Assembly (NCBI GenBank): GCA_029964075.1
Contig: CM057135.1
Span: 26,587,366 to 26,651,365, forward strand
Reading direction: 5' to 3'
Source of the DNA: Patiria pectinifera
Lineage: Eukaryota; Echinodermata; Asteroidea; Valvatida; Asterinidae
Length of the DNA: 64,000 nucleotides
Position 1 is the stretch's first letter, and each line of letters opens with the position of its first letter. Below, one piece after another: positions 3,101-60,899 of the stretch. The position numbers and the translations under genes were made by a program. Below the pieces are notes generated by a model that saw only the letters and a list, made by a program, of their open reading frames with translations, did not search any database and had not been told where the DNA came from.

Positions 3101-6100
3101 CATCCTGTAAAATCATGGCACCTACTGTCATTTTCAAGAAAAGTGGTATTTTTGTATCAATTTCCAACGCGATCAGCGTTGGAAACAACTGGCTTTTTTT
3201 TTCAAATACTGGCCCCAATTGACCATCGCACTTGTTTGCAATCGATTACAAACCTGTGAACGGGTACGAGCCAGCTAGACTGGTTCCCTGACCTTACAAT
3301 TCCCCAATGTATGTAAACTGCTCTGTTTCTTCTTAAATGGAGTCAGGCAACCAGACTACAGGAAAATGATCGTTTTTCTTGGTTTTTATAGCATTTTCGA
3401 ACCCAAAACCTCAAAAAAGTCAGTGTAACTATATTTGCTATATATTTCCAACCCCCCAATTCCATCCATTTCTGAAAATTACAGCAAAAGCAAATGATGT
3501 ATATTCCCTTTAATGTTCTTTTTGTGTAAATTTCCCATAGGCTAGCACAGAGTCCCTCCCCAGAGTTGACTCCGATAAACTCCCAACGTCGGACACCAAG
3601 ATCTCCCAAGACGGCACCTCGGAGCCAGAGCCAGCCACTGGGGCAGACAAGGAGGCAGGCACCAAACCGTCTGTGGTGTTCCAAGAGGAACCCACCGAGA
3701 TTAAGTGGGAAGAGGAGGTTGACCTACAGCAGGCCTGGATGGTAAGACTAACTCCAGATTCACTTTTTATGAATAAAAAATAATATGAGGAGATCATAAA
3801 ATTTACATTAAAGGGAATGTCAGTCTCTAAGCCTCTAAGCCTTGAATCAACACAGTGACAGATATTATCAGGGGTGTGAAATCTCAGCTTTAAAGCTGAT
3901 TTCAAGCTTTTTGTATGTTGGATGTCAGGTTTTTTTCAGCTTTTTCCCTCACTTGCTGTGTACAAAAGTATAGGAGATTTCCAAAGTTCAGCTTTTTTAC
4001 AGCTATTTCAGCTGTTTTCAGCTATTTTTATCAGTGGTCACTCACACCCCTGATTATAGGAATCGAACCCAGGACCGATCATTCACCAATCCAGTGCATG
4101 ATCCCTTACCTACTGTACTCCTGTATAGGATCCTCAGGTGCATCTAGATATCACCTATGTAGGCTTGAAGCCCCATTTATGCAACATTCAATTGTTAATT
4201 CATAGGAATCAAACCTGGGACAGTACTTCAGTAGTCTAGTACCTACCCATCAATTACTGTTTTCCCATCCTAGGACCTTAAGATGCCTCTGGGTGTCACC
4301 TATGAAAGTCCAAGGGAACCTCAGACTATGAGCCTTTTGCAGCCTTATTAAACAATACTCAGTGATAGTAAAAAAAAAATGATCAAACCTGTGACCGACC
4401 ATTTACAAGTCCAGTGCTTGACCCTTAAGGTGCCATGTCCCCCTCTGTTAGGACCTGCAGGTGCCCCTGGATGTCACATAGGAGAAGACGGTGAATGTCA
4501 AAGGGGAACATTAGCCTATAAGCCGTCAGACTTGTTTAATATTACTCCATGATAAAATTATAAAAGTTAAACCAGAGACCACTCATTTATCAATCCAGTG
4601 CCTGAGCCTGAATTACCATTGTTACCCTCCTCTAGGACCTTCAGGTGCATCTAGAAGTCACCTACGAGAAAATCATAAAGTTTAATGTGGGAGGGATAAC
4701 CTCAGCCTCAAGCCTTAAGCCTTGTTCAAGAACATTCTGTGATAAACGAAGAGAAATGAAACCTGGGACCAAGCAATTACAAGTCCAGTCCCTGACCCTC
4801 TAATTGCTGTATTTCCCTTTATAGGACCTTCAGGTGCCTCTGGATGTCATGAGGAAATCATGAATATCGTCGTGTCCGTGCAACAAGGTCGTATCTCCTA
4901 AAATGGCGTGTGACGTCATGTACGTGAAACGCGAGTTTTCAATGCCAAAAGGTTGTGTCTCGCTTAAAATAACCCGGATGTACACACAAAATCAATGGAC
5001 GTCGCAATACGCAAGATATGACCTTGTTGTGCAGAGAGTATTGGTGGGAGATCCAACTTTGTTGCAGAAGCGAGTTACGACCTTGTTGCACTGACGCGAC
5101 GATATTAAATGGTATTCGGAAAATATAAGCCTTGAGTCTTGTTCAGCAAGACTCAATGATAACATTATAGGAATTAAACCTGAGACCACTCATTTACCAG
5201 TCCAGTCCCTGAGCCTTACGTACCATTATTACCCTCTTCTAGGACCTTCAGGTGCATCTGGATGTCACCTGCGAGAGATCAGAATGCCTAATTAAGGGGA
5301 ACCTGAATCTATAAACAATGAGTCTTGTCAAGCAAGACTCAATAATAAAGTAGTAGGAATTAAACCTGACACCACTCATTTACCAGTTCAGTGCCTGAGC
5401 CTGAATTATCATTGTTACCCGCTTCTAGGACCTTCAGGTGCCTCTAGGTGTCACCTATGAGGAGATCATGAATGTCGAAGGAGAACCCCAGCCTACAAGC
5501 CTTATTAAAGCCTTGTTAGATAACCTTACCCTCTACATACTGTTTTCCCCTCTTAGGACCTACAGGTGCCTCTGGATGTCACCTACGAGGAGATCATGAA
5601 TGTGGAAGGCGAACCTCAACTGTTGAATCCCAGGAGAGATGCCAGGGAAGCCATCAGGGAACCCATGTCCAAGCCTACCGTCCAGAGCTCCTCTGTGTCT
5701 TTCTTGTCCAGCTGGGCACCTCAGGAGAAAGCCCCCAGGGAGGAAGTGAGAGTCTTCAATTTATGATATAGAGTCTGTCCCAGGACTTTGGCATTGAGTT
5801 GTCCCCTCAATAAAGGATGCATGAACACACTCTCTCGTTTTTTGAATGATTTAGACTGTGCACAATCAATTTTTGACTCTTGAGTCCGTATCTTTATTTA
5901 AGATGAACGCATCTATTCATTAGTGCACAGAAGAAATGTCTGGCTATCCGTCTGACTATTTTTGAAATAACTACAAAACTAAGAGGTCAATTTTGAAAAT
6001 GTGGGTTGTGCAGATACTCCTAAGCCTTGGCCTCAACCCCTATGAGTTTCATTTGATTTCAGTCACGCATCAATACACAATTGTCAATTGATCACAACAA

Positions 6101-9100
6101 CATTTGTGGACACTGTGACCAAGTTCCTTGCCTTATTCAATTTCAGTACTGTGGTAAGTAAGCTGTGTAAAATCCTTCATGGTGTGAAAGGCAGACTTGT
6201 ATGACTCGGGACTCGGACTCGAGTCCGACTCGAGTCACATTTTTAATGACTCGGACTCGGACTCGAGTCACCTTGACTTACGACTCGGACTCGGACTCGG
6301 GGCTACGGACTCGGACTTGAACTCGAACTGACTTGTGACTCGACAGAAATTACCGCACTGCACACGCGCACATACGTAAGTCGATCGTTTTCTTTACTGT
6401 GCAATACATGTACAGGTCGCTCGATGCGGTGCGTGCGTGGCCATGGCCGGTTACCGATATATTGATTAAAGAAATCAATGTACCGAAATGTGTACCCCGC
6501 CGTCCGCACGTAATACTGCATTGGTGCAAGATTGATAGGGTAAGGTACCAGACTTTTCTTGTCAGACGTCCTGTCGTTCACACGTGTATTGCTGTCGCAT
6601 CGCGATAAAGCAATATGAATAGTCTGCTGATCTGCCCGTTTTGGTAACGTTACATGCAAGTTGCAACGTAGATCATGATGGCATCCACTCCAAAAATTGT
6701 CAATTTTGGGTATCTTAACTTCAAGAGAAATGCCAATGGAATATCAAGTGCAGAATGCAAGTTCTGCAAATTAGAAGAGAAAATTAGAAAAAAGCTGTGG
6801 GGAAAAATGGAAATTTACAGCACCTGAAATGGACGTATTTCCAATACTATATCAAAGGTGACTCTGAATCTCTGAATTCCCTAAAATGTACGTTTTACCA
6901 ATACAATGTTAGAGGCGACTCGTGACTCGGACTTGGACTCGACCTTTGTGACTCGTGACTTGGACTCGGACTCGCCCTGGAGGACTCGGGACTTGGACTT
7001 GGACTCGAGAAATGTGACTCGGACTCGGACTTGGACTTGATGTTTCGTGACTCGAATACAAGTCTGGTGAAAGGGGCTGCGGTTGGGATTGGAATCATTT
7101 GCCTGGCTATCAGTCATCATGGTAAGACCACAGTTTAATACTCAAGGGCAAAGGATTCCAATCCCAAACCACATCAGCCTTTTTTTCACAGCATGAAGGA
7201 TTTTACCCAGCTTAAAACACAGTACTGAAATTGATTAAGGCATTGAACTTGGTCACAGTGTCCCAAAATATTGTTGTGATCAATTGACAATTGTGTAGTG
7301 ATGCCTGACTGAAATTAAATGAAACTCATAGGGATTGAGGCCAAGGCTTAGGAATATCTGCAAAGCCAAACAGTTTCAAAATTGACCCCATGGTTTTGTA
7401 GTTATTTTTAAAAAAAAGTCAGACGAACACTCTTTTGGGGACATACTGTAGAATGTCTCAAGCAAGAGATTACGTTTTCAACTCCCCCAAACAAAATTTT
7501 GTGATCTTTTCTTTCTCTCTAAAACTACACTGAGTAAACAATGTTCACAGTTACACCAGTGAAAATTGGCCTCGCCCTAACGCACAGATTCCATCAAAAG
7601 CCGAACGAGAATGGCCAACTTCCAGAAAAGACTAACTTTGGATTTTTTTTCCTAACATCGACAGAGAGTTCCAGAAGCCAAATCAGAAGGCTATCGTAAC
7701 AGCATCCATCACTTCTGCACCATCCCGGCCCAGCTGCCCATCCCTGGTAGTCTGCAGCTAGCCACGCGTATGTATCACACACCTAGCAAGTATGCCGGTA
7801 CCACAAAGCTGCCGCCTACCTCCGTCAAGGTGAGTCAGGGAACCAACTTTAAACGTAGAGTACATCATTTGTGAATTTTTACGTTTGAAGCAACAAAAGT
7901 GCTCAAAATCTAAAGAAGGGTACTTAAGGCCAAAAAAGGAATAAGTCGGTCTCTGGTCAGCGCGTGCGTCAATTTTAATCATGCGCGTCGATCTTTTTTT
8001 TCCAAAATGTTCCGCGGTAGCTTCAACAGCGCCCTCTATTTCCGCACCTCCTCAATTTTTTTTTACCAAAGAGCACCAAGGAATGGCAAATTGCACCAAG
8101 GCAAATGATCGAAAGCACAAAGGCAAATTATGGAGGACACCAATGTACATGAGGACACCAAAAAAGCAAAATAGTACCCCACCTTGTCTGTACAATCCAA
8201 GCTTGAAGAAAAAAAAAAAAGCCACGTGGCCGCGTCAATTCTGGAACTTTGGTCTGACCAGAGACCGAATATTTTTTTTTTTTTGCCTAACAACTAACCG
8301 GATGAAGTTTTAGCTCAGTGAATGCTGTATATTCCAAGAAAACAAAATATTCTAGGATTTTGATCTCTATTCAGAAGTTGCGAAGTTATGTTTTGAATTG
8401 TGCCCAAATTCAGCGTCTGGGACACGTTCACATTCAGCCAATTGCAGCTACGCGATGTCACACACTTCGAGACTGTTGATACGATGGAAAGCGCTATTGG
8501 TTGGGCAGAAAGGGGAAATTGGATTGGAAATTGGAATTTGGCACACAGTCAGAGTATGCCATGAGAAAGATATTTTTCCATAGGGCCATCGCAGATTTAT
8601 CCTTTGAAAAAAATATAGGTAGAATAACAAAGCAATTTTCAAAATTTTTGGTATTTTTTTTCAAAGGACTAATCTGCAATGGCCCTATAGCCAAATATCA
8701 TTCTCATGACATACTCCCATGACCGTGTGCCACATGTCATGCTTGTATAAAAGGCACAATATGATCACCTATCTGCCTTACTATATATAAGCATTGTAAT
8801 TTATTTATTTTTTAATTGATAGACTTTTGAGGACACTGACTTTACCCTAGACCGAGACAGAGTTGTATTTACACGTAAGTCAGTAGTCAGTCATAAATTC
8901 TTCAGTCAAAAAACAAGTCCCAAACTTGTGATTGGACTTGTGATTTGACTTGTGATGCGACTTGTGATTGAACTTGTGATTGGACTTCTGATGTTTCCAA
9001 TGGACATTCTAACAGGAGCCAAGTGTCTCAGAGAACTCCTACACCCAGACGCTGCGGTCCACAACCTCTCGCCCCAGCCACAGCCACAGCCTTAGCAGCA

Positions 9101-12100
9101 AGGTAGCCTCAGAGCGGACGGCGCAGTACGCCATGGACCAGCAGCAGCGGCTGATGTCGGCTGCCGCCCAGCGCATCCTGAAGGAGGCTGAGGAGAAAAC
9201 GGGGTCTGACACCCAGACTCTGGAGGCGTGGGAGAAGAGGGCGCAACAAGTGGTGAGTGGGACCGCACTATTTGGAAATTTGCGAAATCTTGGTTTTGTT
9301 TCCAGTCTGGGCCTCATCTCCAGATCTAGAATGGTCAAGGAGCCTTCAGAGACCAAAATCAACAGTGAATGGAAAAGGAACTTAAGTATACTGTACTTTA
9401 TTTAAACTTTAGAAGATTTCAGGCACTTCAAATTTTAACAACTCGAAATATTAAAAAATATATATTAGTGACAGTTTACTTTGATTTTCCATGTACTTTG
9501 CAACTTGGGCCATTGGTGACACTTCTGGGATTTTAATTGTAATTATTAATGAGAAACGATACTGTCTTCCCAAAAAAACTTTTTCAAAAAACTTGATATT
9601 AGGCCTGGGCGAGTAGTGGCTTATTCTACTCGAGTACCTGCAAAGAAATTACACACGAGTAGTCGAGTACTCGTGAGTAGTTAACCGAATTCCCATAAAA
9701 GCAGAAAAGTGACATATAATAATAATAATAATAATATCGGAGTCTTATATAGCGCACGTATCTACCAACAATCAGGTACTCAAGGCGCTGGAGAGATATG
9801 TCTATTATTAAAGAAAGGTAAACAAAGTTTATGAGAAATATGAGACCCATTATGTAGCACCTTATAAGGATTTACAAGGTGCTGCGGCGCATATTGCAGC
9901 CACTGCCAGAAACACCGGGGCAAACCCCTTCTCTTAGCGATAAGTGTTACTGGGTTCTTTAACGTGCATTACACAACACACGGGACCTACGGCTTTACGT
10001 CCCATCCGAAGGACGAAGCAATAATGGTAAAGTGCCTTGCTCAAGAGCACAAGCACCATGTTCCCATGGTCAGGATTCGAACCCATGTACCACGGTACAC
10101 GAGTCGAACACCGTTACCATTGGACCACAGCACCCCATATATGTGATGCGATCAAGCTAAATGAGTCGTTTGTCAGGAATTTTTATTTAGAGATACAGGC
10201 CAAAATAGGGCCACTTCATCACATCACTTCATCACATCTCTTGGTGTTCCAACTTCCATAATTTTGGAACTAAAGAAGATACCAGCATGTGGTTTTCTCA
10301 GCAGTAATGCTGAGATTGTGCTCTTTTCAAATCTATAATAAAATTTGTTTGACCAGGGTCGACAAACAGCTCATGTAGCTTGATTGTGTCACATATGTTA
10401 GTATGATGAGAAGTAACTACAAGCGAACAGCGTGCAAGTCACACCACATTCTTCAGCACTGAAGTATCCTTACTGTGCGACGTTTTGGGTCATTTACTTG
10501 AATTTGTTGTTTTCTTTTGACAAATGGAATCCTAGGGAGAGAGAGGTGGAGGGAGTGATTCCCTGTTTGCAGGGGGTGTTTTAAGCAGTGAACCCTAAAC
10601 CCTTCTACTTGTACCAGGACGAGTACTCGAGTAGATGAAAAACCAAGAACAGAACGAGTAGCATAAACTACTCGTGAGTACTCGAGTAATCGAGTTACTC
10701 GCCCAGTGGTACTGAATATTCATTATCTGTAAATAAAGCTATGATGACACTTGTTTTTAGAAAATGTGTGCCTGCCACTACAGATCTGAGTAAGACATAT
10801 GTCATTCTTTTCACAGATATCAACTACATTTCTTGTAGGTTTAGTAGTTTTTTTCATGTCCTCATTTTTATCCCCCTAGCTTTTAAGCCAAGAAAGGGGA
10901 ATCTTGTGATAGTGAATTCCTTCTGTGTGTCCGTGTGTTCCATTTTGGTTAGGTTAACTGTTTAGTGCTGTCATATGAAAAGTCAGACTTTACTCTCAAC
11001 CAAACTTGGTGACAATAATCTTTGGGTAGGGGGACTTCAGATGACTTGAGACATTTCAGGTCAAAGGTCACCTAGGGTTCAAATGAGGTCATTGTTGATT
11101 TTGGTTAGGTCAACTGAAAAGTGTGCTTACTAACTGACTGTATAAATACAGCCAGCATGCCAGGGGGATCGCGCAAGTTTAACTTGAAGTATTTTTTTCA
11201 TCCACAGTTCGACGACGAAGAGCTGGAGATTGCCGGCCAGCGCATGCCCCTCAGGCAGGACCAGTCCCGCCTCTACTGGACCCCGGCCCCGCCCAAGATG
11301 GACCTGCCCTCGGCCTACATCCGCAGCGTCCTGTACCCAGAGTTCCAAGGGGCCGCGCTGGACGAGGACGGCGAGAGGCCCATCTCGGAAGGGGTGGGAT
11401 TGGAGGAAGGAGGGGATAGCGACGTGGGCCTGGCCGGAGCCATGGAGGAAGGGGATGATGAGGAGAAGAGCGACTCTCACAGGTCTGAAAAAATTAAAAC
11501 TGCTTAGAGATTTGTGCTAAGCCTTTCACCAAATCTGCTAAATTTAACCAATTTCATGTAGGTACTAAGCACACAAACATGCTAAGAAGGGAACATACTT
11601 GCTTAGGAAAAATAAGCTTAAACCAAATTTCAATGTGGTATCTATTGCCAGACTGTTTTCTGCCCCTCCACCCTCCTATATGGCGACTGGTAGCTAGCTT
11701 TCATTTAAAGCCATTGATTGGGTCACCTCTGCACATGCATCATGATTGTTTATTTTTAAATCGCTGCTTAGCTTTGTGCATGGACGGTGGTTAAACACAC
11801 GATTGTCAAAAAACTCACTCTTGCCTCACCACAAAAACTAGGCACAATCGTCAGTGTCTCCATGAGGGCAACTTTCAAGCATTTCGACTGCATAAGTTTT
11901 AAATAGTAATTTCCCTCTCTTTACTGATATTTGCCAGAGACACTTTCGAATTCAGCAAAAATCAAAGCTCATCACCTCGGTAACTACACATTTGTGGCGT
12001 GGCGTATTGCCATTTTGCAGTAGGCTGGTTGCGCGCAACCATTACCGTTGTGATATTGAATTCACGAAACGGGATTCAGACCTATACACGTCATGCATAT

Positions 12101-15100
12101 AATTTGCACACATCAGGAGGAATGCCTCCTGATGTAGTCAGGTTCACTGCTAGCTACCTGTCCCCATATTTGAAGTCCAAAGGACAATGGGGGCAGGGAA
12201 CCAGACTAGTCTATTGCTTGCGATTGGTTCTCAGCAGATTTTTGCTTTTAAGCCCACACAGTTGTTGAGTATTAAGCCGTGTCCGAATTACTCGGCTACA
12301 GCTAGGAATTACACACGTCTATGGAAAGTGGCTGCAGCCGCTACCATGGACTCCTGTGTAATTTCAAGCTGTCACCAAGTCACTTGGAAATGGCCTTAAA
12401 CTGCTTAGCAAAATCCTCCTTAGCAAATTTGTGTGCTTCACAAAACATCAACGGATTACCAGTCACAAACAACGTTGCATGCCGTTTTGGCTGGTAACAT
12501 GTCTACTTTGCATTACTTAAAGGGAATATACAACATTTGCAAACATCAAAAAATAAAACTACCAAGTTTTTACGAAATACCTTACTAGGATGTTGGTAAA
12601 TGACAGTCTCAAGCATCTTGTAAAATGATGGCACCTGGTGTGAAGTCATTTTCGAGAAACTGGTTTTTTTTGTATACATCGTTGCAAAAACCCAACTATT
12701 TTTCAACTACTGCTTCAAATTTACCATTTTTTCAGTCCAAATTTTGTTTGCTATTGGTTACATGTTCATGAACGGGTGCAGGCCAGCTAGACTGGTTTCC
12801 TTGCCTTACAATTTTCCATCATCTATCAATTGGTCCATTTTATCTTTTGTGGAGTCAGGGAACCAGACTACTTGAACATTTTTGTTTTTCTTGGTTTTTC
12901 CAGCCTTTTCGAACACAAAACTTCAAACATGTCAGTGTAACAATATTTGATCTATTATACTAACCCCTCAAATAGTTCATTTCTGAAAATTACAGCAAAA
13001 GCCAATGATGTACATTCCCTTTAACAAGGGGCCTTTGTTATGCTAATTTAACTACTTATTTTCATGGCGTTGTAAGCCTTTATAGTTTTACTATACCCCT
13101 CCAAAGCAGTCACTATTTGTATACTATATCATCCCTCATGAACAGTTTCCTTGATTACATAATCATCCTACAGGCTCTTACAGCATCAGCACAGGTCCTG
13201 CGAAGACCTGACCAAACTTGGCTGGCTCAAAAGAGAAGCTGCCACTGCAGCCAAGGTGCCTGGCCAAACTCCGTCAAAAGAGGGCGACAGAGAGGTGTCG
13301 CCGAGCGAAGAGGAACGGCAACAGGAAGGAGGGGCGACTGCACCGGTGACTCCAGCTAGGTCCAGCTCAGGTATGGAATCCTTTAATCTTCCCCTTTTTT
13401 CTCACTTGCATTAATTTTGTCCCAAATGTCTAATTTTGCGTGAAGATGTGCTGTCGTTTGCTGTGCCTTTTGACAAAAATTGTTTCTTTCTGTGTGAATG
13501 ACAAATATAAAGTCTGAACATTCTCACAACTCATTCAAGTGTTTTTTGCATGAATTTGCATGGAGTGAAATTCTAATATATATTTTTCTTGATGTCATGT
13601 GTATCTTTTAATATTCACAACTTATTTTCCCAAAAAAGAACGTACATCCTATTTGCATGTTGAATGTCTCCCAGTTTCAATAAGAATGAAGCAAATGTGT
13701 TGATAACTTGGGCTTCTAACTTTTGAGTATGTCAAAAAAGTATTGAATTTTTGAAAGAAATAATATGATTGAGAATAAAAGTAGTTGTTTCCAATGAAAA
13801 GCACAATATACATTTTAAGTGGAAATTATTCATAATATGTAATATGGACTGCAGATTCCTTTCATTTGCGCGTCATATGGAATCATTTTGTAATCCACCA
13901 TCACCCTCCACACCCTTACCTGTCTACCGAGGTACACCCAGTGGAACCCAGCTCATAACACCCAGAATTTCCCAGTGCTACATCTGTATTATCATTAGGA
14001 GGTTCTTAAGGCACCCATTGTACCCATTGATACCCATTGGTTCAGTGCTGGAATATTTACCATGAAGAGAACCTGGGCCAAGTTCGGGCAAGGACCATTA
14101 GTCGACTAGTGGTTGATTTGTGACGTACCTTACGCCTGCGCACTAATAGCAACGTGCGAACGTCTCTAGTCAAACGCTGGTCAAAATGACATCGCAAAAT
14201 GTCTGGATCCTGGCTCTCTGCTAGCGTTATGAATGCGCGCGGCTATTGGTTACCAGCGAAGCAACCAACCCCAGTAGGCTGGTTCCAAATAGTCGACTAG
14301 CATAGTCAACCACCGTCGACTAGACAGAGTTCGGGCAAACGTTAGTTAACCATTGGTCAACTATAGTCCTTGCGCGAACTTGGCCCTGTTTGGCACCCAG
14401 TGGTACATCCGTAAATGCAGAGTTCTGTCATGCTCATCAGACAGAGTACCCGTTTGCTACCTAGTTGCACCCAGAGTTCTGTAATACTCATCATGAGGGA
14501 CACCCATATGGTACCCAGTGGTACCCAGTATTCCTGTGAACACATCAAGAAGTGAGCCCAAGCATTACCCAATCGGGTACCCGGTAGACAAGGTTCCTCC
14601 AACTCAAAATCACACTGCACATTTGCACTGTTTGTCTATTTTGTTTTACTCCTCTTGTGTGCCTCTCACCATTAACCATCAAGGTGTACCCAGCCAGGCA
14701 ACCGATGACACCATCAGCAATGTGCTCATCCATGGTAAGTAGAAACTGCACACTGATGCTTAGCTGGTAAGTAAGCACATTGCAACTTATAACAGGGACG
14801 ATCTGTTTAAGGCCAAAAAAAAATATGTCGGTCTCTGGTCCAGCGTGCGCGTCGATTTTAATCATGCGCGTCAATCTTTTTTTTTCTAAAATGTTCCGCG
14901 GTAGCTCCAACAGCGCCCTCTATTGGCTCATCTCCTCAATTTTTTTTAACAAAGAGCACCAAGGAATGGGGAATTGCACCAAGGCAAATGATTGAGAGCA
15001 CCAAGGCAAATTATGGAGGACACCAATGTACATGAGGACACCAAAAAAAGCAAAATAGTACCCCACCTTGTCTGTACAATCCAAGCTTGAAGAAAAAAGG

Positions 15101-18100
15101 AAAAAAAAGCCGCGTTCCCGCGTCAATTTTGGAACTTTGGTCTGACCAGAGACCGAATTTTTTTTTTTTTTTGGCCTAATATGAGGAAATTGTTTTTAAT
15201 TACATCTCATGACATGCAACAGCTAAATGTATCTTTGCATGAAAATCGCGTTTGTGTGATTGACGTTGAACATCAGTGTTGTGCTTTTATCACCATGATT
15301 GAGTTATGTGATATGAGATGGTTACGTCCATATTTTTACATATGAATGAAGTAATCTACATTTTAATGTCCTGCATCCATGCACAATTTTATTTCAGTTT
15401 TGTTTAGTAAGAGTTTTGGCTGTAAGTTAAAAATTGAAATTGAAAAGAAAAAACAGTCTACATTTGTTGAAAAAATCTTGAGTTTATCTGTCATTTACTA
15501 ATTCACTCTTTCTCTTGTTCATGCTTTACCTTCAATCTTCTATATTTACATGAAGAAAATGTGATCTTATTGAAATAATGTACTTTCACTCTTGAAACTA
15601 CCAATGAATAACAACAGACAATTTTTTTATCAAATCATATCATTGAGTCTGCAATAATTATAACCTTTTTGTAATAAATGTGTCTCAACAGATATTCAAA
15701 GACATGTTAAGTTTTGCCTCTAGTTTTGTTGAGCAGAGTTGTAGTCAGCTCAGTCTCAGTCAAAGAACAAGTCAAATTACAAACAAATCACAAGTCAATT
15801 CACAAACAAATCACAAGGCAAATTACAAATGAATTTGAAATAATATGATATAAAAATCTCAATGTTGAGCAGTGTTGAAGTTGGGTATTAGTCTTAGTCA
15901 AATCACAAGTCAAATCACAAGCAAATCACAATTCAATTCACAAGTCAAATCACAAGTCAAATCACAAGTCAATTCACAAACAAATTACAAGTCAAATCAC
16001 AAGTAAAATCACAAGTCAACTCACAAGTCAAATCACAAGCAAATTGCAAGTCAAATCACAAGTCAAATTTCAAGATCACAATCGAAAGAAGACGAACAAT
16101 GACAAAGCAATATTTGTGTCATATTTCCTCTAATTTGCTTGTCACTTGACTGGAGACTGACTGACCTGTGAGGTCGCGACTTCAAACTTCGACATGACAG
16201 TGATATGTTGCTGTGTTTGTTTTGATATGACAGTGAAGTCTTACACCAGCGTGAGTGAATTACGCCGCAAGTTCTCCCAGGTCACGACCTCAACCACAAA
16301 GGAGGAGAAGGAATCTGAGGAACAAGGGATTATCATTGAGATACCTGAAACTACCAATGCCATTGACACACTGCAGCCAATCAGGTAGGCCAATGTTACC
16401 CTTCCTATCTGTCAGCCAAACTATGCCAATTACCAATTAGAACTAGAGTTTGTCATCAGGTGACCATGAAGCTGGGTCAAACTGGGTCACAAGCCAGAAG
16501 TAGGCGGGGCTTATGGCCAAATTTGGAACAGTCCAATGGTGTGATCCATTTGATTGGACAAGAAAAGAGAACTTTCAATCAAGAATTACTGTTGCCCGTA
16601 GTTTGACTAAATTTTATCGAATGCTTGCTTGGGTGCTAATATGAGATTTGTCTGTGGTTTTTTAAGAAGCATGGGGCACATATCTTTAAGTCTCAATTGG
16701 ACTAAATTCACCAGGCTAAAGTCTAAAGCACCAGCTGAGACAAAGCCCATGTTTCATAAACACCCTTAATATCAATTTCCTTGTTGCTGTTTTCCTATAG
16801 ACATTCAGTTAACCGTAATTTGACTAAATTTCATCGAATGCTTGCTTGGGTGCTGATATTAGATTTGCTGGAGTCTTTATAAGTCTCAATGAGACTAAAA
16901 TCATTAGCTGGAGTCTAAAGCCACAGCTGAGATGGAGCCCATGTATCATACACACCTCTAATATCAATTTTCTGTGTTTGGTGTTTCCCAATAGACGCAC
17001 CCAGTCGGCCCCGGCTCTGTCGGCCGAGTACGACACCCTGATCCTGGACGACGACTTTGACACCTGCATGCAGGAGGTGCAGAAGCAGCAGCAGCAGATA
17101 CAGGAGGTCAAGGCCGCGATGCAGCGCCAAGGCTCCGAGGAAGACGAGAGCGAAGACATTATAGGCGAGGTGGTGAGTCAGTGTTGAGACCTTTTCCGAG
17201 ACCTTTCAAGACCTCTTAAATTACCCCTGTTCATCAGGCCATGGGAGCCAGTTTTTGCAGCAGCTCGAGATGGACACATTCTGGTCTCTACCTTTGCATG
17301 CCTGTTCACAGGTATCCATTTGTACTCCCGAGTGGAGAGAGGCAATTATAGTAAATTGTCTTGCCCAAGAACACAAGCACCATGTTCCACGTCAGGGTTC
17401 GAACCCACCGTAATACACTGTAACCATTGAACCACAGCGCTCCACACCCCTTGTGTTTCTCTGAATTTCCTTACCTTTATATAATAAACCTAACCCTGCC
17501 CCAAACTGCCCTCTCTTTTACTCCCCCGACGCCTGAAACGGCCTACAATATGTAGAACATGTGCTTATGGGTTAATTCTGAGTATTTATTATTGGTGTTG
17601 GAAAGTGAAGCTTTTCTTTCTGATTCAAGCGCCATGTTTCAAGGCAAGGTTTGAAAATTGCCTAATGACTCAATTCGGGCGATTCACAATGCAGTGCGCC
17701 ACCAAGAGTTTGCCACGGAGAGTTCATTTTCGCCAGTGCATTGTGGGAGATGGTCGACAAATTCGCAGCGCGGGACATTTGAAATTGTTCGTTTTCCCGG
17801 TCAGTAGTTTCATAAGCATATGATTCGAGTATATGTTTGCCCTTTTCTTTTCTTTGTATCAATATGGTAATTTTGGATAAGGCGGCAGAACGCTATGCCC
17901 AAATCCATAACAAATTAGCTCAAATTGTCTACTGACACTCATTCAAATGGGCCATGTTTTGTCGACCGTAAACTTGAAAAGTTGACTCTCCATGGCAAAC
18001 TCTTGGTGGCGCACTGCATTGTGAATCACCCGAATTGCTCACCGGTTTGCAGCCGGTAAGGTAATCCATAGGTTGCAGGTGGCAATTCTGCTTAGTCAGT

Positions 18101-21100: not shown

Positions 21101-24100
21101 TATTAATTCTAATTTCCTCGCGCCTTTTCCTTCAAAGATCCTGAGTTTAGTTTAGTTGTAGTAGTTTTAGCGCGAGCTCCCATAGTGAGTCAGTTTTCAC
21201 GGTTACACATACATTGCTGGAGCGGTTCTGAGTTGTACAGGGAGTAACAGGCAGGGTGGTTGGGACGATATATGGATGAACGGGTTGATGTGGTTTCTTG
21301 TGAGAAAGATCTTGTGTCTTCTTTTCGTTTATCTAATCCTGCATCGCTGCACAGATTATCAGTGTTTTGGACTTAACAAAGCTTTAACTTCATCTTGTCT
21401 TTCTTTCTTTTAGGAGGGTCCGATCTCTGAGGAGAGGTAGTCTGCCCGATTTACTGGACTTTGATGAGTACGTCAGGGAGAACAGAGACAAGTGAGTAAC
21501 AGCCTGCTCAGAAATGTTAAAAAAGCTGCCGCCCATGGGTTCCAACTACTCCCCTCAATTGTAAGAAAGGGAGAGTTGGGGGATACCACTGGGAGAGACA
21601 TTCAAACACATTGCTGATGACGCCTGACGCTCATGCAAAAACGCAATGGCTTTGTGTAGAATAGAATAAGTCATGCATTCTTTGCGTTGTGCGCGTGCGA
21701 ACCAGTACGTGCCCACGGTCCCGTCCACTGGGCCTTGCAAAAATGGTCAAAAAGCACCTTCTCTTGTTCGTGCATGGAGCCCATATTTACGAGTCATTAT
21801 TGAGTCAACTCAATCACATGTTAAATCTGCGGTCAGGGATGAACATTGACATTGAACAAAGGGATGTCTTTGTCACATGTCTTTTTTTATGTTAACAACA
21901 ATAATTCTTAGAATAAATAATGCTCATTTTATCTTTTTAGGGATGAGACGGACAACCTGCGTGAATGGGCACGAGGCATATGGGATGCCTGGTTTGACGA
22001 GGTCTTCCCTCCCACGGAAGCAGATAGCGAGTCGGACTTTGAGGAGGAAATATCGCCGACCATCTTCCCTACCAAAAGGTAACTTCTTCTTTGGAGTGGT
22101 ATTCAAATCTGCGACCTCCAGTATGATACGCCAGAGGTCCTGGGTTCCAATCCCGCTCAAGTCTTTGCCTTGTTCAGCGTCACATGGATACCTATTGACA
22201 TCCTGTCAAACCTTCTATTGATTCTTGCAAGGTCATTAAGGTGGGGCTCAGCTGGAGTGGTATTCAAATCTGCGACCTCCGGTATGATACGCCAGAGGTC
22301 CTGGGTTCCAATCCTGCTCAAGTCTTTGCCTTGTTCAGCGTCACATGGATACCTATTGACATCCTGTCAAACCTTCTATTGATTCTTGCAAGGTCATTAA
22401 GGTGGGGCTCAGCTGGAGTGGTATTCAAATCTGTGACCTTCGTTATAATACGCCAGCGGTCCCGGGTTCCAATCCCGCTCAAGTCTTTGCCTTGTTCAGC
22501 TTCACATGGATACCTAATATTGTATGACATCCTGTCAAACCTTCTTTTGATTCTTGCAAGGCGGGGCTCGGCTGGAGTGGTATCCAAATCTGTGACCTAG
22601 AGTATGAAATTCCAGAGGTCCTCGGAGGGTTCGAATCCCGCGCCAGTCTTTTCTGTTGCTCAGTGTCATATGGATACCTAATATTGTATTACACCCTGTC
22701 AAACCTTTTGATTCTTGCGAGGGGGGGCTCGACTGGAGTCATATTCAAATCTGTGACCTAGAGTACAAAGTTCCAGAGGTCCCAGGTGGGTTCGAATCCC
22801 GCCCAAGTCTATTCTGTTGCTCAGCATCGCATGGATACCTTATATTGAATTACACCCTGTCAAACCTTTTTTTGATTCTTGCAAGGCGGGGCTCGGCTGC
22901 GAGCAGCGTGCGTTCCGTGGAGGTTGACATGACCGATCCGATCATGGAGACGGAGGAGGACAGGGAGATAGTAGAGGTAGGGCCTCGGTCAAAAATTTGA
23001 TGAGAACTTGATCGGTGTTAGTTGCTGTGCAGTTGCTGCAACAGTAACTGTAAAAATTTTCCATGTCATTGTCAGCTCTATTTCCAACTTCTTTTCATTA
23101 CTTGAACAATTTGAGATTGTAGATTTGATTACTATTGACCTCAATAGACACGTTCTCATTTAATCTACTCTGTTTATCCCATTTTGAAAATTGTCCAAAT
23201 TTTGATGTGCATATGTGCAATTGAAGTATCAAAACTGGCTTTTGAGAAATTGTGTGGTAAAAACATGTTAAGTTTTTTTTGTTTTGTTTTTAATTTTGTT
23301 TTTTCATCAGTGGCTACACGAAGAGGTATTACAGCTGACAGCCATCATTGAAAAGTCTCCCCAACCCTCACCCTTTGATCTCTGTCGACGTGGAGCTATG
23401 TATCGCAAGGTAGGTCCGAATTTTAGGATTTCTTTTAGAGAAATATGGGCAGCATCCTGCGCTCTTTATGTGAGATTTTCTCCCACTAAGCAAAATGTAG
23501 GCATTGTATTCTTTTTTCTCCAAAGAGGAAGGTTAAACACCTGTTGCCAGCTATGCATTGCCTCTGTGTAGAGCTGCCATCTTGGAATGTTGCATGTCAT
23601 TTGGGCCCAGCTGCAAGCCCAAAGTTAAGAAAGTTCATTAACTTCATGGAAACCATGGCAACTCGGTTGTCATTTTTTGCTCAGCAAATCTCTTCTGAAT
23701 TTAGCTTGATTCTCGGGGTACTCAAGGTCAAGCCATTGCAACCGGACCGGGTCAAGAGGTCATGTGGCAATTAAATCCCCTTTCCAAATGGATTCAAGCA
23801 AGAAATGGCGGTGTCACATGAAAATCCGACTCCTATGAAAATCGGACCCCTATTTCCCTATTATTGGTTGATCCCTCGCACGTGACAGGTCACTCTCCCG
23901 AAACGATCCTAAAAATAGCATAGTATCGTACTCACGCGTGCGCAGTACTACCAATGAGTCCACATTTCATGGAGTCGGATATTCACGCTACACCGGCTAT
24001 ATTTCAAATTAACTTAACATTCCACCCATTGTCTTTTTACACACTTTTGAATCCCCCACCCCCACAGCATTAGACTCAGCTGCATTTTTTCGCATTCATT

Positions 24101-27100: not shown

Positions 27101-30100
27101 TCCTCGGCGATACACCTAGACCCGCTCAGCAGCGTGGCGTTCTATCACCGAGGCTGTCTGCTCAGGAGGTAAAGGGGTCATCTGGAGGTTGGGGATCATG
27201 GGTAACGATAACTTAAATTAACAAGTGGCTTGCTACCATCATCACAGAGGCACACTACCATCACTGTAAGGGCTATAATGCAGAGGACTGAAGCCCTGTG
27301 GACCCCATGTACAAGTGACTTCCTCAATGGTGAACAATTTCACAAGGATTAGAGAAACTTGATGGGAAATAGAAATTTCAAATAGTTACTATTTGAATTA
27401 AACAAAATCACAGAGCAAATCATCAAATATCACCCAAAAAATATTGGCCAGTACAAAATTCATCCAGAAGTGTGCTTTTAAAAGTAAAATTGTCCGCACA
27501 AATGTGAATAAAAGTTAGCTTGTTAATTCGGCTTTAATTTGAAAATGTAATGACTGTTAAAAAATATTCCCTCAGTTTCAAACACGCAAGTATTTTAACT
27601 AAGTCTATTAACGGCAATTACTTGTTTATTAACTGAGTTACAATCAAGTCCTCACAAGTCATCCCAAGTCAATCACAAGTCCATCACAAGTCATCACAAG
27701 TCAATCACAAGTCAATCACAAGCCAATCACAAGCCAATCACAAGTCAATTACAAGTCAATCACAAGCCAATCACAAGTCCATCACAAGTCATCACAGGCC
27801 AATCACAAGTCAATCACAAGCCAATCACAAGCCAATCACAAGTCAATTACAAGTCAATCACAAGCCAATCACAAGTCCATCACAAGTCATCACAGGCCAA
27901 TCACAAGGCAATCACTAGTCAATATTAAGTCAATCACAAGTCCATCACACGTCATCACAAGTCAATCCCAAGTCAATCACAAGCAACTCACAAGCCAATT
28001 ACAAGCCAATCACAAGTCAATTACAAGTCAATCACAAGCCAATCACAAGCCATTCACAAGTCAATCACAAGCTGATCACTAGCCAATCACAAGTCAGTCA
28101 CAAGTCATTCACAAGTCAATCACAAATTAATCACAAGTCAATCACAAGTCAATCACAAGTCATCACAAATCAATCACAAATCAATCGCAAGTCATCACAA
28201 GTCAATCACAAGTCAATCACAAGTCATCACAAATCAATCACAAGTCAATCACAAGCCAATCACAAGCCAATCACAAATCAATCACAAGTCAATCACAAGT
28301 CAATCACAAGCCAATCACAAGTCAGTCATAAGTCATTCACAAGTCAATCACAAGTCATCACAAATCAATCTCACGTCAATCACAAGTCATCAATTCTCGA
28401 GCATTCCTCCTGCCACTTTCATCTTGTTAATTGTGCCCTTGGTTGTGATTTGACTTGTGATCGACTTCTGATTGACTTGTGATTGCCTCAATCTGAATCT
28501 AATATGTATTGGGACCACTTCCTACAGGGCTAATCCCAAGCAGGCTCTTCAGGACCTGAGCGTCTCGGTTCTTCTTGATGACAGCGAAGAGAACGTCATG
28601 GCCTTCTTCCACCGAGCCGTGCTGTACATGGACGATGACAGGTACATTCGTCTTAAATTTGCAAGTCTCCCTATAAAGAACACCAATATGGCTGGTTCAT
28701 GTCCAGCACAAAAGAAAACTGTAAACTAACTTCATATTTAATTGGTTAGGAGTAAGTGCACAGGATGGAACGTTGAAGAGCAAAAATTGCTTCAAAAATA
28801 ATGTAATACTGTGTGCTATTCCTTCTATGGTACAGATATGAGGATGCCATCGCCGATTTTGATAATGTTCTGAAGCTTGACAAGACCATAGCGGCATCCC
28901 ACGTCAACCTGGGTCTGATCTACATGACCAAGGTGGAGAACTACCACAAGTAAGTATATCTTCAAGCACAATTTATTCCCTAAAAAAAAAACTTCAAAGT
29001 TTGGGATATTGATATAGTTTTCATCCAATTATCTTAAATATCTATTGGACCTCAATGTGTATTGATTTACCAGGTCATGCCAAGAAAAATCAGCGCTGGA
29101 TTATGTCCTGCCTTAATTGTAGTACTTTAACTCAAGTACTTGTACTCATGTACTTGTAATCTAGTACCTATACTTTTTACATCAGTGATTGTTCTCAAGT
29201 ACTTGTATTTAGGCTCTTGTTCTTAGGTACTTGCTCTCCAGGACTTGTACTTAAGTTCTTGAACAATTAGTACTTGTACTCTGACACTCTAGTACTTGTA
29301 CTCATGTACTTGTACTCTAGTACCAATACTTAAGGTTTTACATCAGTGATTGTTCTCAAGTACTTGTATTCGAACCCTTGTTTTTAAGTACTTGCTCACT
29401 GTTACTTGTATGCTAGTTCTTGAACAATTAGTACTTGTACTCTGACACTCTAGTACTTGTACTCATCTACTTGTACTCTAGTACCAATACTTAATGTTTT
29501 TACACCAGTGCTTGTTCTCAAGTACTTGTATTCAAGCACTTGTTCTTAAGAACTTTCTCTCTGGTACTTGCACCCTATAGAACTTGAACAATTAGTATTT
29601 GTACTTTAAGACTCTAACAACTAGTACTTGTACCTTTGTACTTGTGCTCCGGTACTTTTACTTAATTGCTTCCGTGCAGTTGTTCTTTAGTACTCACGTG
29701 GACTGCAGTCCAGTTTGCCCAGCTCGAAAGACTGTTTTTCTCCCTTCTCATGTGTCTAAGATTAAAACTTGAGCCAACGTCAGTGTCAGTTGCTTGTGAT
29801 TTACCTCAAAGTTAATGACGTGACACTTTTTTTTTTGGCAGAGCCATCCAGAAGTTCACCAATGCCATCAAAGTCAATCCCGTCTACGTCCGAGCCTTGG
29901 TGTGCAGAGGGGAGGCCTACCACAAGATTCACGATGTAATAACACCATATTTGTTTGGAATGGTCATACGTGGTACAGTAAACTCTCGGTCTCGGTCTCG
30001 ACTTTGGACCCGGAGGTCTCGGTCTCGGTCCTCAGGTCTCGGCCTCGGTCTCGAGCTTTCACATCTCAACTACAAAACTGATTTTATTTCATCTTAACTC

Positions 30101-33100
30101 CTTGTTACCTTTTTAATACCAAGATCCACTATTTGAACAAAAAAATAAGATTATCCACTGTTAATTTACTGATAGTTTTTTATTTATATTTATTCAAACT
30201 TGGGGCCCACATGCTTAGAGGTTTTGGCTAACGATTTTTCAAACTACAAAGTCGAGTCTCAAACTAAGCTTCATTCAGTTTACATTACTTATGTTTTTGT
30301 TCCCCTGCAGTTGAAGAACGCCCTGCTTGACTTCACCAGGGCGATACACCTCCGACCAGACCAGCAGCATTACTACATGTACAGGGTAGGTCTCACCTCT
30401 CTGATATTGTATAACGAATGCAATTTCCAATTTTTCTTTTTTTATGCAATTTGCATACAGATGTGACACACGGGAATTTCGTTTATAATTTCAGGGAGAA
30501 ATCTTGTTGGAGATGAAGAATCTGGAGTTGGCTAGCTTCTGTGTCAAGTAAGAGCAAATATTTTTCTCTTTGAAACTGGCAGTTGCAGCCGAGAACAATA
30601 AACTAAAGTGAAGAGTTGGATAACATACTCAAAAGTATATTAAAAGACATTTGAAATCAAACAATTAAAAAGGCTTGATATTTCAACCTTAGCAAAGCCT
30701 TCTTCAGAGGCAAAACAAAAAAATCAAGGTCTCCTGAAGAAGGCCTTGCTGTAAAGGCTAAAATATCGGGCTATTTTAATTTTTTGATTTGTACATTTCA
30801 GTTCAATCTAGTAAGTGGGCGGTTTGCAGCATTTTAATTCAGTTTCATAAAAGAAATGTGGTTCGCAATTCACAATGTCAGCTTAGGGTGATGGAAATTG
30901 CTAAGATGGAGCTGATTTGATGGCTCTGGTAACTACAAAATTCTGCACTGATGATCACCAATCTGTGCTTATAGCTCTTTCAAAGCACAAACCCTGTAAA
31001 AACAGAGTCCTAAGTGTGCATGCGCACAGGCCGAAATTCCTTGCTAACTCGGTGAAATATATACAGTAACAGTTTCTACAGTAACTGTTTTAGGCCAAAA
31101 ACAAAATAAGTCGGTCTCAGGTCAGCACGCACGTCGATTTTAATCATGCGCGTCGATCTTTTTTTTTCTCCAAAATGTTCCGCGGTAGCTCCAACAGCGC
31201 CCTCTATTGCCGCACCTCCTCAATTTTTTTTACCAAAGAGCACCAAGGAATGGGAAATTGCACCAAGGCAAATGATCGAGAGCACCAAGGCAAATTATGG
31301 AGGACACCAATGTACATGAGGACACCAAAAAAGCAAAAAAATACCCCACCTTGTCTGTACAATCCAAGCTTGAAGAAAAAAAACAAAAAGCACCCCCCCC
31401 CCAAAAAAAAAATCCGCGTCCCCGCGTCAATACCGGAACTTTGGTCTGACCAGAGACCGAATATTTTTTTTTTTTTTGCCTTACAGTAACCACATAATTT
31501 TCCGCAGTAGTTAACAAGAATTATTCGCTTGTAGTAAGTAGAGCCACAATATTGGGCCAATGTTCCAGAGCGTAGATCTCTTCTATATGATCCTCTGGAA
31601 AGATGACTTTGTGTCTTTTAATTCATTAGTACAATCCATATTTTATTTCTCAGACATGCAGCAGCACTGAGCCACGGCCTGGGCTCCTCAGCCACCCAGC
31701 AGGCAGCCGTCCAGTCCTTCCTTCACAACTACCCCAAGGCCATCGAGGTCCTGTCCACCGCCGCCCGGTCCCAGCCCTCAGCGCCGCTCTTCATCCTGCT
31801 CGGCAAGACGCAGATCAAGGCCAAGAAGTACCGGGACGCTGTGGACAGCCTGGAGAAAGCCCTCAACTTCATGGTAAGGAGGGCTTGGATTGTTGATTCT
31901 TCATTTAAAACCATATATGAGAAAAGCCCTTTCAGCTAGTTGAGTCCATCGTAAGTCTACACAAGCCAGTCACAAGTATAAATCACATGCGATTTCACAA
32001 GTCTGCAGGGAATGAATCAACAATAACAAAGGAATGTCTTCTTTTGACGTGGGACTCGTGATTGACGTGGTATGACTTGCGACTGACTTTTGAGGACTTG
32101 TGACTGACCTATGAGGATTTGTGAGGTTTTCTGAGGGCCTGTGATTTCTTGTGATCAGTTTGACCAGCTAACACTAATCCTTTGACTCCCTCGTTGCAAT
32201 CACAGTTTCACAAACAAAACTTTATTTTAACAACAACATTTTAAAACTACCCAATACCACCAAACACACCAATTACAATTTAAAATATGATTGTCGAACA
32301 GGTAAACAACAACAGTGAATAAAAAAAAAATTTAAAAATTATTAATAAATTTAGATAGCTACCATCTCCCTAACCCCTTCAGCTGGCTGAGATTTCTTCA
32401 AACAAAACATTTTATGAATCATTGAAAACAGAATCTCTGAAACGGTGATGAAATGAGTGAAAGTTGTATAATTGACTTGACATCAACTCTGTAATCATGT
32501 TCTGCTGGAATAATGATTGTACTGTTTGGCGTATGTGAACACTTTGACAGAAACCTTGGCAGGAGCGTCAGACTTGGCCCATGGAGGCCGCAGAGGTCAA
32601 CTACCTGATCGGGATGTGCCACACGGAGATCCCCAACTACCTCAAGGCGTTTGAGGCGTTCAACAACGCCATCAAGATCAACAGTGAATACCCAGAGGTG
32701 AGATTTATTTAAACCATTGCTATGACGTCACACTATTGTTAAAAGTGTGGATTCGGATCTACGAATCTCTTACACTGGTCACAAAGTGTGGATTCGGAAT
32801 GACGAATCTTTAGTAAAGTGTGGATTCGGAATTACGAATCCACACTTTGAACTTCGGCCAATTGTCTCCATAATGAGCATGAATAGGACCGTCTGCGTGA
32901 AAATTTGCTTTCCGAATATTACCAATGCATCTTCACAGTCAGATTCTCCGCCGTCACGGCAAAAACTACTTTTAGTCCGAAAGAAATCGTCGTCTGAACT
33001 ATCCATTTTGACGTAAGGAGCCTGTACACACAAAATGACTTGGTTGTACGGGTGTGGCGAAAAATGTTGCAACCTGACGCCACTTCCGCGCTTGTGTACA

Positions 33101-36100
33101 AAGTCTATGGAGAGTCATTTCAAGTATTTCCTAACAAAATTGGAAACATTTCGCAGTCCCAGATTCATGACTTATCATCATTTTTGCAACGAATGACCCT
33201 CATTGAGATGATAGATGAAGAAAAACGTGGCGTCAGGTTGCAACATTCTTTCCAATACTTCTGTTGACGCAATGGTTTAAGTCGAAGAATACACTCGCAA
33301 GTGTGGATTCTTAATTTACGAATTCACTCGGCGCTTCGCGCCTCGTGAATTCTTGAATTACGAATCCACACTTTCTCGTGTATTCTCCTTAAACAGAACC
33401 TTTCTTAAGATTTTCCCCTGTTGTCATTTTGCCGGACTGAATGGGACAGCCAATTTTCCACTGACTGAGCCACTGACTGACTGAGTATAATCACTTATCA
33501 GTTTGTCTGTTGTAGCAACAGTAAAAATTTTCAAGCATTCAGTAAGACGGAAGTAAAGTTTGCACAAGAGTTACAGCAAACACAGTGCAGTCCAAAACTT
33601 TCAGAATTGTGCACTTGCTACAAACCAAGAACTTTTCTGCATTTTTTTTAATGGAAGTTGCCAATTGCAAAGCCAAACTCCACTCAGACATAAAGGGCTA
33701 CTCAAATATGGAACAAGTACGGGCACAAGGGTCGCTTGCCTCTGTACTCCAAAACACACACCTGAGCGGTGTGGTACATGTACATGCCATATATGACCTA
33801 ATCTTAAACGGACCTATTACAGATGGTGTTCAAAGAAGAATCAGTAATCTCCGTCAAGGACAGATGGTTCTACAACCCAACAAATGAATCCTAAAATGAA
33901 ATTTATGAAGTCCTCTTGTGTGCTCATGCAGTCTGCATACCAAATTGGCTTATCAGAGCGATGCAGTTCTTCTTTTGTTTTCACCTCTTTCTCTTGTTTG
34001 CAATCTCGCCAGGCCTACTACCAGCGCGGCCTGACCCGCATGAAGCTGCGCCAGTCTAAAGGCATCCTGGACTTCAACCGGGCCTTGGCCCTGAACCCCA
34101 AACTCTTCCAGGCCTTCCTGAGCCGAGCCGCCTACTACGGCATGAAGGGACGCTACTCTAAGGGCATCGTCAACTGTAACGAGGCCGTCAAGCTGCAGCC
34201 AAACAGCGTCAGGGCTTACCTCTACAGGTAAGCATAGATTAAAATCATAAAGTAGGGTTCGAACCTTCAACCCCTGGAGCACCGGACCAGTGCTCCACTG
34301 ACCAAACTCAGTTGCCGGTTTTCCAATTCATCAGTTATATCAAGCTGCAGCCCAATAGTGTCAGGGCTTACCTGTACAGGTAAGCATAGATCAAAATCAG
34401 AAAGTAGATAAAGTAGGGTTCGAACCTTCAATTCCTGAAACACCATACCAGTGCTCTACCCGCTAACCTCGGTTGATGGTTTTCTTATTCGTCAACTGAA
34501 ATGAGGCCATCAAACTGCAGCCCAACAGTGTCGGGGCTTATTTCTACAGGTAGGCACGGATTAAAATCGTAAAGTAGGGTTTGAACCTCGGACCGCCAGA
34601 ACACTGCACCAGGTCCTTATCTCCATTCTGGGATTGGTGCTTTGAATGGGATGGATTTTGTTGCTGGGATTGGATTTTTGAAAATTGTATTCCTTTCAGT
34701 AGATGTCACAAACAAAACATGCTTAATTTAAAATTCTTGCTGAAATAGGTTTGTTAGGTAGTGCATTGCACCTTAACAAAATTGGCCCAAAGTCACACAT
34801 TCCTGAAATGACATTGTTTTGCTTTTCATTGTACAAAATGAATTTTTTTTTCTCGTAAGATAGAGTTGGTTCGAGTCCCACCTGAGTAGTTTCTGAATTT
34901 TTCTCTCACAATCGCTCAGGACAACACTGAGTATACAGTGTTTATAAAAACATGTTGGTGGAGAAAGAAACCCTAATTTTTCATTTTCTTTATATTTTTT
35001 ATGCTTAAACCAAATTTGTATTGCAACGTCACGAAATTGGCCTTTGGTCACACATTTTTTTACTTTTCAAGGTTAGGCCAAAAAAAAAAATAAGTCTGTC
35101 TCTGGTCAGCGCGCGCGTCGATTTTAATCATGCGCGTCGATCTTTTTTTTTTTCCAAAATGTTCCGCGGTAGCTCCAACAGCGCCCTCTATTTCCGCACC
35201 TCCTCAATTTTTTTTACCAAAGAGCACCAAGGAATGGGAAATTGCACCAAGGCAAATAATCGAAAGCACCAAGGCAAATTATGGAGGACACCAATGTACA
35301 TGTACATGAGGACACCAAAAAAGCAAAATAGTACCCCACCTTGTCTGCACAATCCAAGCTTGAAGAGAAAAAAAAAAGCAAAAAAAAAAAAAAAAAACGC
35401 GTGGCCACGTCAATTCCGGAACTTTGGTCCAGAGACCAGAGACCGAATATTTTTTTTTTTTGCCTTATTATTATTTTTTGATTTATTTTATTTCTAGGGG
35501 AGCGCTCAAGTACTACATCCTGGCCTACAAGCTGGCCATCAAGGATCTGTGTAAGGCCATCGAGATCGACAACACCTGCTCCTTGGCCTACTTCAACCGA
35601 GCCGTCTGCTACCACACCACCAAGGACTACACTAAAGCGCTCAGGGATTACGGCATCGTGCTCATGCTGGGGGAGGCCAACGCCCTCAAGGTCAGTGAAC
35701 TCATTTCTATTGGGTCTGCGCACACCCTGCTGGGGGCGCTGTTTTCTAGTTCCTGACTTTATTTAGCATGCTTAGGGGTGCTGATGATTGGTGAGGCCAA
35801 CGCCCTCAGGGTCAGTGAAGTTTTTTCCATTGGGTGGGTGCACACACTGCTGGGGGCGCTGTTGTTATATTCTCTGGCCTTGTTGAGCATTGTTTTCACA
35901 CAGCTGTGAATAAGAGCCCGTCTCAATTCATTTGCGTTGTGTTTCACAGAATATGTTATTCTCCAACTAATTTGCTAACCGTATTCCCGAACTGGCTTAC
36001 GGTTGAATCTCTGCACGTGATCACTGTACACTCACGAGGCCCCCTTCAATGGAGAAACCATTGTGCATGCTATTGTAGCAAGCAACTGCACAGTAGTGGA

Positions 36101-44988: not shown

Positions 44989-48929
<3,941 letters not shown>

Positions 48930-53422: not shown

Positions 53423-53446
53423 CCTTGTCAGAACAACAATATGAAT

Positions 53447-60879: not shown

Positions 60880-60899
60880 TCTGGTCAATAAAAACTGAG

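Follow-up and report, generated by a model that had tools for sequence, protein, structure and literature searches.

The window analysed in this study, a stretch of 64,000 nucleotides from Patiria pectinifera (contig CM057135.1, positions 26,587,366 to 26,651,365), carries on its plus strand a gene of many predicted exons. When exons 3541-3741, 5557-5745, 9016-9252 and 11208-11481 were joined, a single open frame was obtained. In a Pfam scan, TPR repeats were found in downstream exons of this gene, and no family matched exons 3541 and 5557. Exon 38145-38411 had 77 matches in the PDB, and among the matches listed (the best 60 of the 77) most were TPR proteins. A search for the TPR exon in viral contigs gave 13 pattern matches, none of which held up, and no confirmed relative was found there.

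Exon 3541-3741 ends at the donor ATG/GTAAGA at 3742 (score 5.0, 99.2nd percentile among the GTs), and exon 5557-5745 is followed at 5746 by a donor-like GT in the 97.3rd percentile among 3693 GTs. A TGA (5764-5766) and an AATAAA (5809) lie downstream of the latter exon, and from the sequence it is possible that this exon is alternatively terminal, ending at the TGA. The features of the window that are considered below are listed in table 1.

Table 1. Exons, exon-edge duplications ("mirages") and an insert in the window.
Feature	Position	Strand	Description
Upstream exon, phase 0	3541..3741	+	Exon prediction; this exon belonged to the training set of the predictor
Array 1 (mirage)	4040..5618	+	Eight units; seven decoys upstream, the eighth functional
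Insert, MITE-like	4863..5106		244 bp; 35-bp terminal inverted repeats, 91% complementary; inside unit 4825
Functional exon	5557..5745	+	Open; exon prediction, acceptor score and frame joining
Mirage 5, borderline	16582..16996	+	Two copies 217 bp apart, acceptor side
Mirage array 2	22092..22899	+	Five ~161-bp units at the acceptor of exon 22886-22976
Mirage array 3	34167..34612	+	Three units of ~161 bp; last ~60 bases of TPR exon plus donor
Mirage 4	35658..35890	+	Two copies with a spacing of 120 bp; final 33 bases of exon 35498-35690 and its donor

The intron after exon 3541-3741 contains a tandem array (array 1), in which every unit includes a pyrimidine tract, a TAG and a copy of the first part of exon 5557, and the units are arranged head-to-tail. 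The acceptors lie at 4129, 4274, 4452, 4636, 4825, 5243, 5429 and 5557, exactly where an earlier note on this DNA had placed all eight, and are spaced by 145, 178, 184, 189, 418, 186 and 128 bp. The 418-bp spacing after acceptor 4825 is due to the MITE-like insert within that unit. The note had counted eight or nine units over 3785-5745; eight were recovered and a ninth was not found, and the extent was corrected to about 4040 through 5618, with an ill-defined start that fell at 4002 in a profile search and at 4053 by self-BLAST. Its reading of the repeat as a 3' splice site amplified locally and in tandem, together with the 5' end of an exon, was borne out by the eight aligned units, as was the claim that the last copy alone (5557) has a full exon followed by a donor. 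It had labelled this exon TTC6, which is a putative name.

Alignment of the units, which the note had proposed as a check, was significant, with self-BLAST E values down to 5.6e-65 between distant units of array 1, and the tandem repeat is thus confirmed. The profile search gave 8 matches in the array, a circular result since the profile was built from the same units. When positions 5540-5760 were searched against the 613.5-Mb genome, four matches were obtained, every one inside array 1; this search skips common words and recovered 4 of the 8 units, so that diverged copies elsewhere could escape it. Repeats are generally troublesome in assemblies, but nothing specific was found in favour of an assembly artefact or a chance similarity, and either is extremely improbable: besides these E values, the copies share 60-87% identity among themselves (self-BLAST), are ordered, and in one case bear an insert of their own. 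The extent to which the array 1 decoys differ from each other (pairwise identity 0.47-0.74 in the alignment) likewise argues against an assembly duplicate.

The acceptors themselves had been described as decayed. In the current analysis the AG was intact in all eight, and scoring with generic weights placed them at the 97.7-99.6th percentile among 3669 AGs; it is the exon portions that have decayed. Over exon bases 1-31 the upstream copies were identical to the functional exon at 24-28 of 31 positions. Over bases 32-62 the identical positions numbered 28 of 31 in unit 5429 and 2 to 22 in the remaining six upstream copies, unit 4825 being truncated at its insert for this comparison. Mean column identity of the decoys fell accordingly from 0.88 (+1 to +12) and 0.80 (+13 to +31) to 0.53 (+32 to +62), with 0.62 in the intronic remainder.

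Stops or frame changes had been noted in the units, and when the upstream copies were read in phase 0 from the donor at 3742 all seven met a stop, after 9, 12, 23, 25, 36, 55 and 56 codons; unit 4825 also contains a frameshift. The two longest readings belong to units 4636 and 5429 (55 and 56 codons), which had been singled out as potential alternative cassettes. The donor-like sites located before both the stop and the next acceptor amounted to three weak CAG/GTGCAT motifs at +10, with a score of 1.6 compared with 5.0 at 3742 and 2.7 at 5746. No good open donor before the next acceptor was detected in any of the seven decoys, and an open frame from acceptor to usable donor, as a cassette would need, was absent from all of them, units 4636 and 5429 included. 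The proposal of alternative cassettes in array 1 was therefore not upheld.

Array 1 is an exon edge duplicated head-to-tail, and these results make it likely that its decoys are neutral and skipped in splicing. We infer that an intron stretch together with the first ~60 bases of exon 5557 was duplicated several times head-to-tail, by unequal exchange or template slippage, giving rise to a "mirage" minisatellite. The last copy is the only one that continues into the remainder of the exon and a donor (or into a stop and a poly(A) signal), and would for this reason stay under coding selection. The upstream copies decay, and the spliceosome would pass them over, since an acceptor is poorly defined when no complete exon follows it.

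A similar duplication has taken place at other exon edges of the same gene region. Judged by alignment to the predicted exons, the window holds three further clear exon-edge duplications besides array 1, and one borderline case. The repeats are head-to-tail, with 8, 5 and 3 copies in arrays 1-3 and two copies each in mirages 4 and 5, and in arrays 1-4 the aligned unit spans the splice site and part of the exon. Both sides of exons are affected: array 2 makes up 794 of the 807 bp of intron 22079-22885, upstream of an acceptor, and array 3 repeats a donor (GTs at 34228, 34380 and 34550). In mirage 5 the upstream copy has an AG at 16799-16800, and the functional AG of exon 16995 lies at 16993-16994. 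Only 2 bp of the exon are covered by the match, whose two AGs are two alignment columns out of register, and it is doubtful whether this duplication spans a splice site and part of an exon.

Three arrays of the window (at 22092, 29130 and 34167) share a period of 161 bp, and one of them is a simple repeat away from predicted exon edges. A direct repeat of 72% identity (37945-38095 and 38425-38576, self-BLAST) brackets the predicted exon 38145-38411, as though a segment bearing the exon had been duplicated and one copy of the exon then lost.

The second unit of array 3 contains an open, in-frame candidate exon of 45 nt (34335-34379) between an AG and a strong donor, which repeats the end of the TPR exon and was accepted by the exon predictor. 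By prediction it has the open frame from acceptor to usable donor that is missing from the array 1 decoys, and is a candidate for a mirage-derived cassette. Such units could be a reservoir for new exons or introns, either by recruitment of cassettes or by introns arising between mirage copies. In addition to the candidate exon, the composition of intron 22079-22885, nearly all repeat, is as the published intron-gain model (PMC3087553) would predict. However, the acceptor of the candidate exon scores only 1.2 and no array 1 decoy has a usable open exon, and a reservoir role is quite improbable. Neutral decoys that are skipped in splicing are the reading followed below, and for array 1 this reading depends neither on the candidate exon nor on mirage 5.

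All five of the non-simple short-range duplications in the window touch exactly one exon edge, if the 2-bp overlap of mirage 5 is counted, and no exon of the 20-exon list lies entirely within any of them. Excluded from the count were simple-sequence arrays (at 6203, 27601-28390, 29114-29694 and elsewhere), TRF repeats of shorter length and the repeat pair 37945/38425, which has an entire exon between its copies. The exon lists are our own predictions rather than an annotation, and exons of this window formed part of the training set of the codon model. The 20-exon list was derived from 25 predicted exons, of which six were dropped (2041, 7665, 18254, 23311, 34335 and 36246); one exon was extended and one added. 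The 30-exon list contains ten more exons, placed by eye.

When the duplications were placed at random in the region 600-41000 (20,000 trials), a mean of 1.86 touched an exon edge with the 20-exon list and 2.57 with the 30-exon list. All five touched an edge with P values of 0.0039 (20 exons) and 0.0247 (30 exons), and all five did so at exactly one edge with P values of 0.0000 and 0.0001. The fair figure without mirage 5 is that for at least four touching, which was 0.0536 with 20 exons and 0.1840 with 30. A preference of the duplications for exon edges is thus only suggestive, and the evidence for it is weak because without the borderline case four of five touching arises in 5.4% or 18.4% of the trials, depending on the list.

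In a genome sample of 20 stretches of 10 kb (200 kb), which held 16 duplication clusters, 8 exons were predicted and none of their 16 edges was in contact with a cluster, a number too small to gauge how frequent such contacts are. The predictor used on this sample gave 16 plus-strand and 2 minus-strand exons in positions 1-41000 of the window. No tandem duplication was found at the four plus-strand and two minus-strand exons predicted in the 10 kb upstream of the window, where the one pair detected (51 bp) lies away from predicted exons.

The good preservation of the decoy splice sites allows a different interpretation, in which the decoy acceptors work: they could bind U2AF, compete with or delay acceptor 5557, and so set the level or timing of the product. 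Apart from the eight strong acceptors of array 1, all 14 decoy splice dinucleotides of arrays 1-4 were intact and in register. The search patterns for the units of arrays 2 and 3 contain the AG or GT, but these units are regularly spaced, with no room for one that had lost the dinucleotide. Pairs of adjacent columns conserved across all decoys made up proportions of 0.11, 0.51, 0.44 and 0.62 in arrays 1-4, with a product of ~0.015. Moreover, the stretch from the acceptor to +31 is the best conserved block of the array 1 unit. Mean column identity of the decoys over +1 to +31 was 0.82 as against 0.62 upstream; in a block comparison the mean was 0.812, the best block elsewhere had 0.754, and 76 of 5000 chunk shuffles reached the value of the exon block. 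Where the decoys depart from the functional exon, the changes were distributed 20:9:4 over codon positions 3:2:1, a ratio in which 7 of the 20 represent one site and the frameshift of unit 4825 contributes to the remainder.

Against working decoys, the pyrimidine tract of array 1 showed no excess of C/T-only changes and thus no sign of constraint in this test (C/T versus other pyrimidine changes 52:75 in the tract and 237:319 in other pyrimidine columns). Lancelet mirages are reported to leave splicing undisturbed (PMC3087553, PMC3902484). Equal conservation is also produced by serial copying: repeated copying from the functional unit, which is itself selected, would yield conserved decoys without any selection on them. 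Serial copying is preferred over selection on the decoys as the cause of their conservation, and working decoys are considered unlikely. Array 1 is also a natural test of how splicing selects one acceptor among eight similar ones.

As to the origin of the arrays, pieces of tRNA-derived SINEs may have inserted next to exon edges, destabilised the site and so seeded them. An exact B-box match was present in each of the three arrays with at least three copies and in neither of the two-copy duplications, the chance per 170-bp stretch being ~0.02 for an exact match and 0.065 with one mismatch. This association was found post hoc, and exact B boxes are denser in the window outside the arrays (7 in 60.5 kb) than in the genome sample (5 in 200 kb). 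A SINE found in the genome was weakly matched by arrays 2 and 3 (E of 0.005 and 0.003), whereas array 1 had no SINE match and an exact B box in one of its units only. When scores of A/B-box pairs were compared with 300 shuffles, none or few of the shuffles reached those of one array 1 unit and of arrays 2 and 3, and 57 of the 300 reached that of another array 1 unit. Rfam scored array 3 as tRNA with 13.9 and 13.6 bits, under the cut-off of 29, and gave no tRNA for arrays 1 and 2.

Among the 16 duplication clusters of the 200-kb sample one held an exact B box and five a B box with at most one mismatch. The cluster with the exact match is a tandem pair of the tRNA-derived SINE itself (sampled stretch L020, 8690-8762 and 9037-9109, ~345 bp apart), whose heads score 32.3 and 40 bits as tRNA and of which a copy lies in the window at 39220-39356. 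ARAGORN found no tRNA genes in the window or in L020; with relaxed thresholds every stretch examined yields some call, and those calls were discarded as evidence. Two of the duplications carry no tRNA-like piece. Seeding by SINEs is given a small probability, and the tRNA/SINE piece in the larger arrays is a concrete and refutable lead on their origin. A broader proposal, that exon-edge arrays reflect a process found more widely in deuterostomes, triggered where tRNA-derived SINE heads insert beside an exon and leaving lasting rows of intact splice sites that are either ignored or tune splicing, is somewhat less probable still. Simple duplication of exon edges, with neutral decoys, remains the preferred account.

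Pfam matches make an echinoderm host probable and speak against a lancelet. The Pfam Bindin family, which to our knowledge is confined to echinoderms, gave a single match in the genome, over the cut-off (125.6 bits; 127.1 bits for the exon alone). Lancelets carry several GFP genes, and in an exon-by-exon search of this genome no GFP match was obtained, with a control that matched in no genome. A search for COX1, intended to reveal the mitochondrial code, likewise had no match.

The phenomenon is real, local and repeated, and is of a known kind. PMC3087553 describes mirages as tandem duplicates across an intron/exon boundary, on the acceptor side in the lancelet globin gene BflGb6 and on the donor side in BflGb9, with units of 150-160 and 157 bp of which many retain AG or GT. 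Both types of boundary are represented in P. pectinifera, and the units are of similar size (161, 161 and about 186 bp). In contrast to Branchiostoma, the host here is an echinoderm, the array 1 decoys are more diverged (0.47-0.74) than the published BflGb6 units (81-100% identical; PMC3087553), and four clear cases and one borderline case lie within one gene region. RT-PCR of the lancelet globin mirages suggested no interference with splicing, according to the same source. Its authors proposed mirages as a source of new introns and called the mechanism unclear. A model cited there, in which introns are gained by internal tandem duplication across AG/GT, resembles the present case in that a tandem segment carries splice signals; here, unlike in the model, the end of an exon has been copied into a pre-existing intron.

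Further lancelet mirages, in Adh3, troponin C and PGBD5, are described in PMC3902484 and PMC3087553. Like those in the window, they are tandem repeats that extend across splice sites of both kinds (5' and 3'), and in PGBD5 the repeats are likewise imperfect; the units are shorter in Adh3 (10-72 bp) and PGBD5 (60 and 108 bp), and the host differs. One PGBD5 mirage is described there as annotated as an exon without RNA support, and length instability between alleles or cells is reported for the Adh3 and BflGb6 mirages. No echinoderm mirage was found among the matches listed in a literature search that was mostly worded for lancelets, and which cannot show absence. With four clear cases in one echinoderm gene region, the question of mirages becomes testable in another phylum.

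Several other features of the window and the sample were observed. Three long ORFs (52232-53449 on the minus strand, 56406-57872 on the plus strand and 59926-60936 on the minus strand) are partly similar to each other (58-59%, self-BLAST). The Pfam scan covered the second of these, which matched Methyltransf_34 below the cut-off (22.2 of 26 bits). This methyltransferase-like ORF had no relatives in viral contigs, and the ORF at 56463 had no match in the PDB. A near-perfect palindrome (46056-46473, 92% by self-BLAST), which Rfam miRNA models match on both strands below the cut-off, is most likely a folded transposon. A dispersed repeat of ~370-400 bp is present in four copies of 85-91% identity (7924-8290, 14807-15179, 31089-31501 and 35075-35465). 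It was also found by eye that L021 (4480-5151) and L024 (3429-3918) seemingly carry one ~145-bp tandem unit, on two contigs and in opposite orientation, and similar-looking ORFs near these units may be parts of one mobile element.
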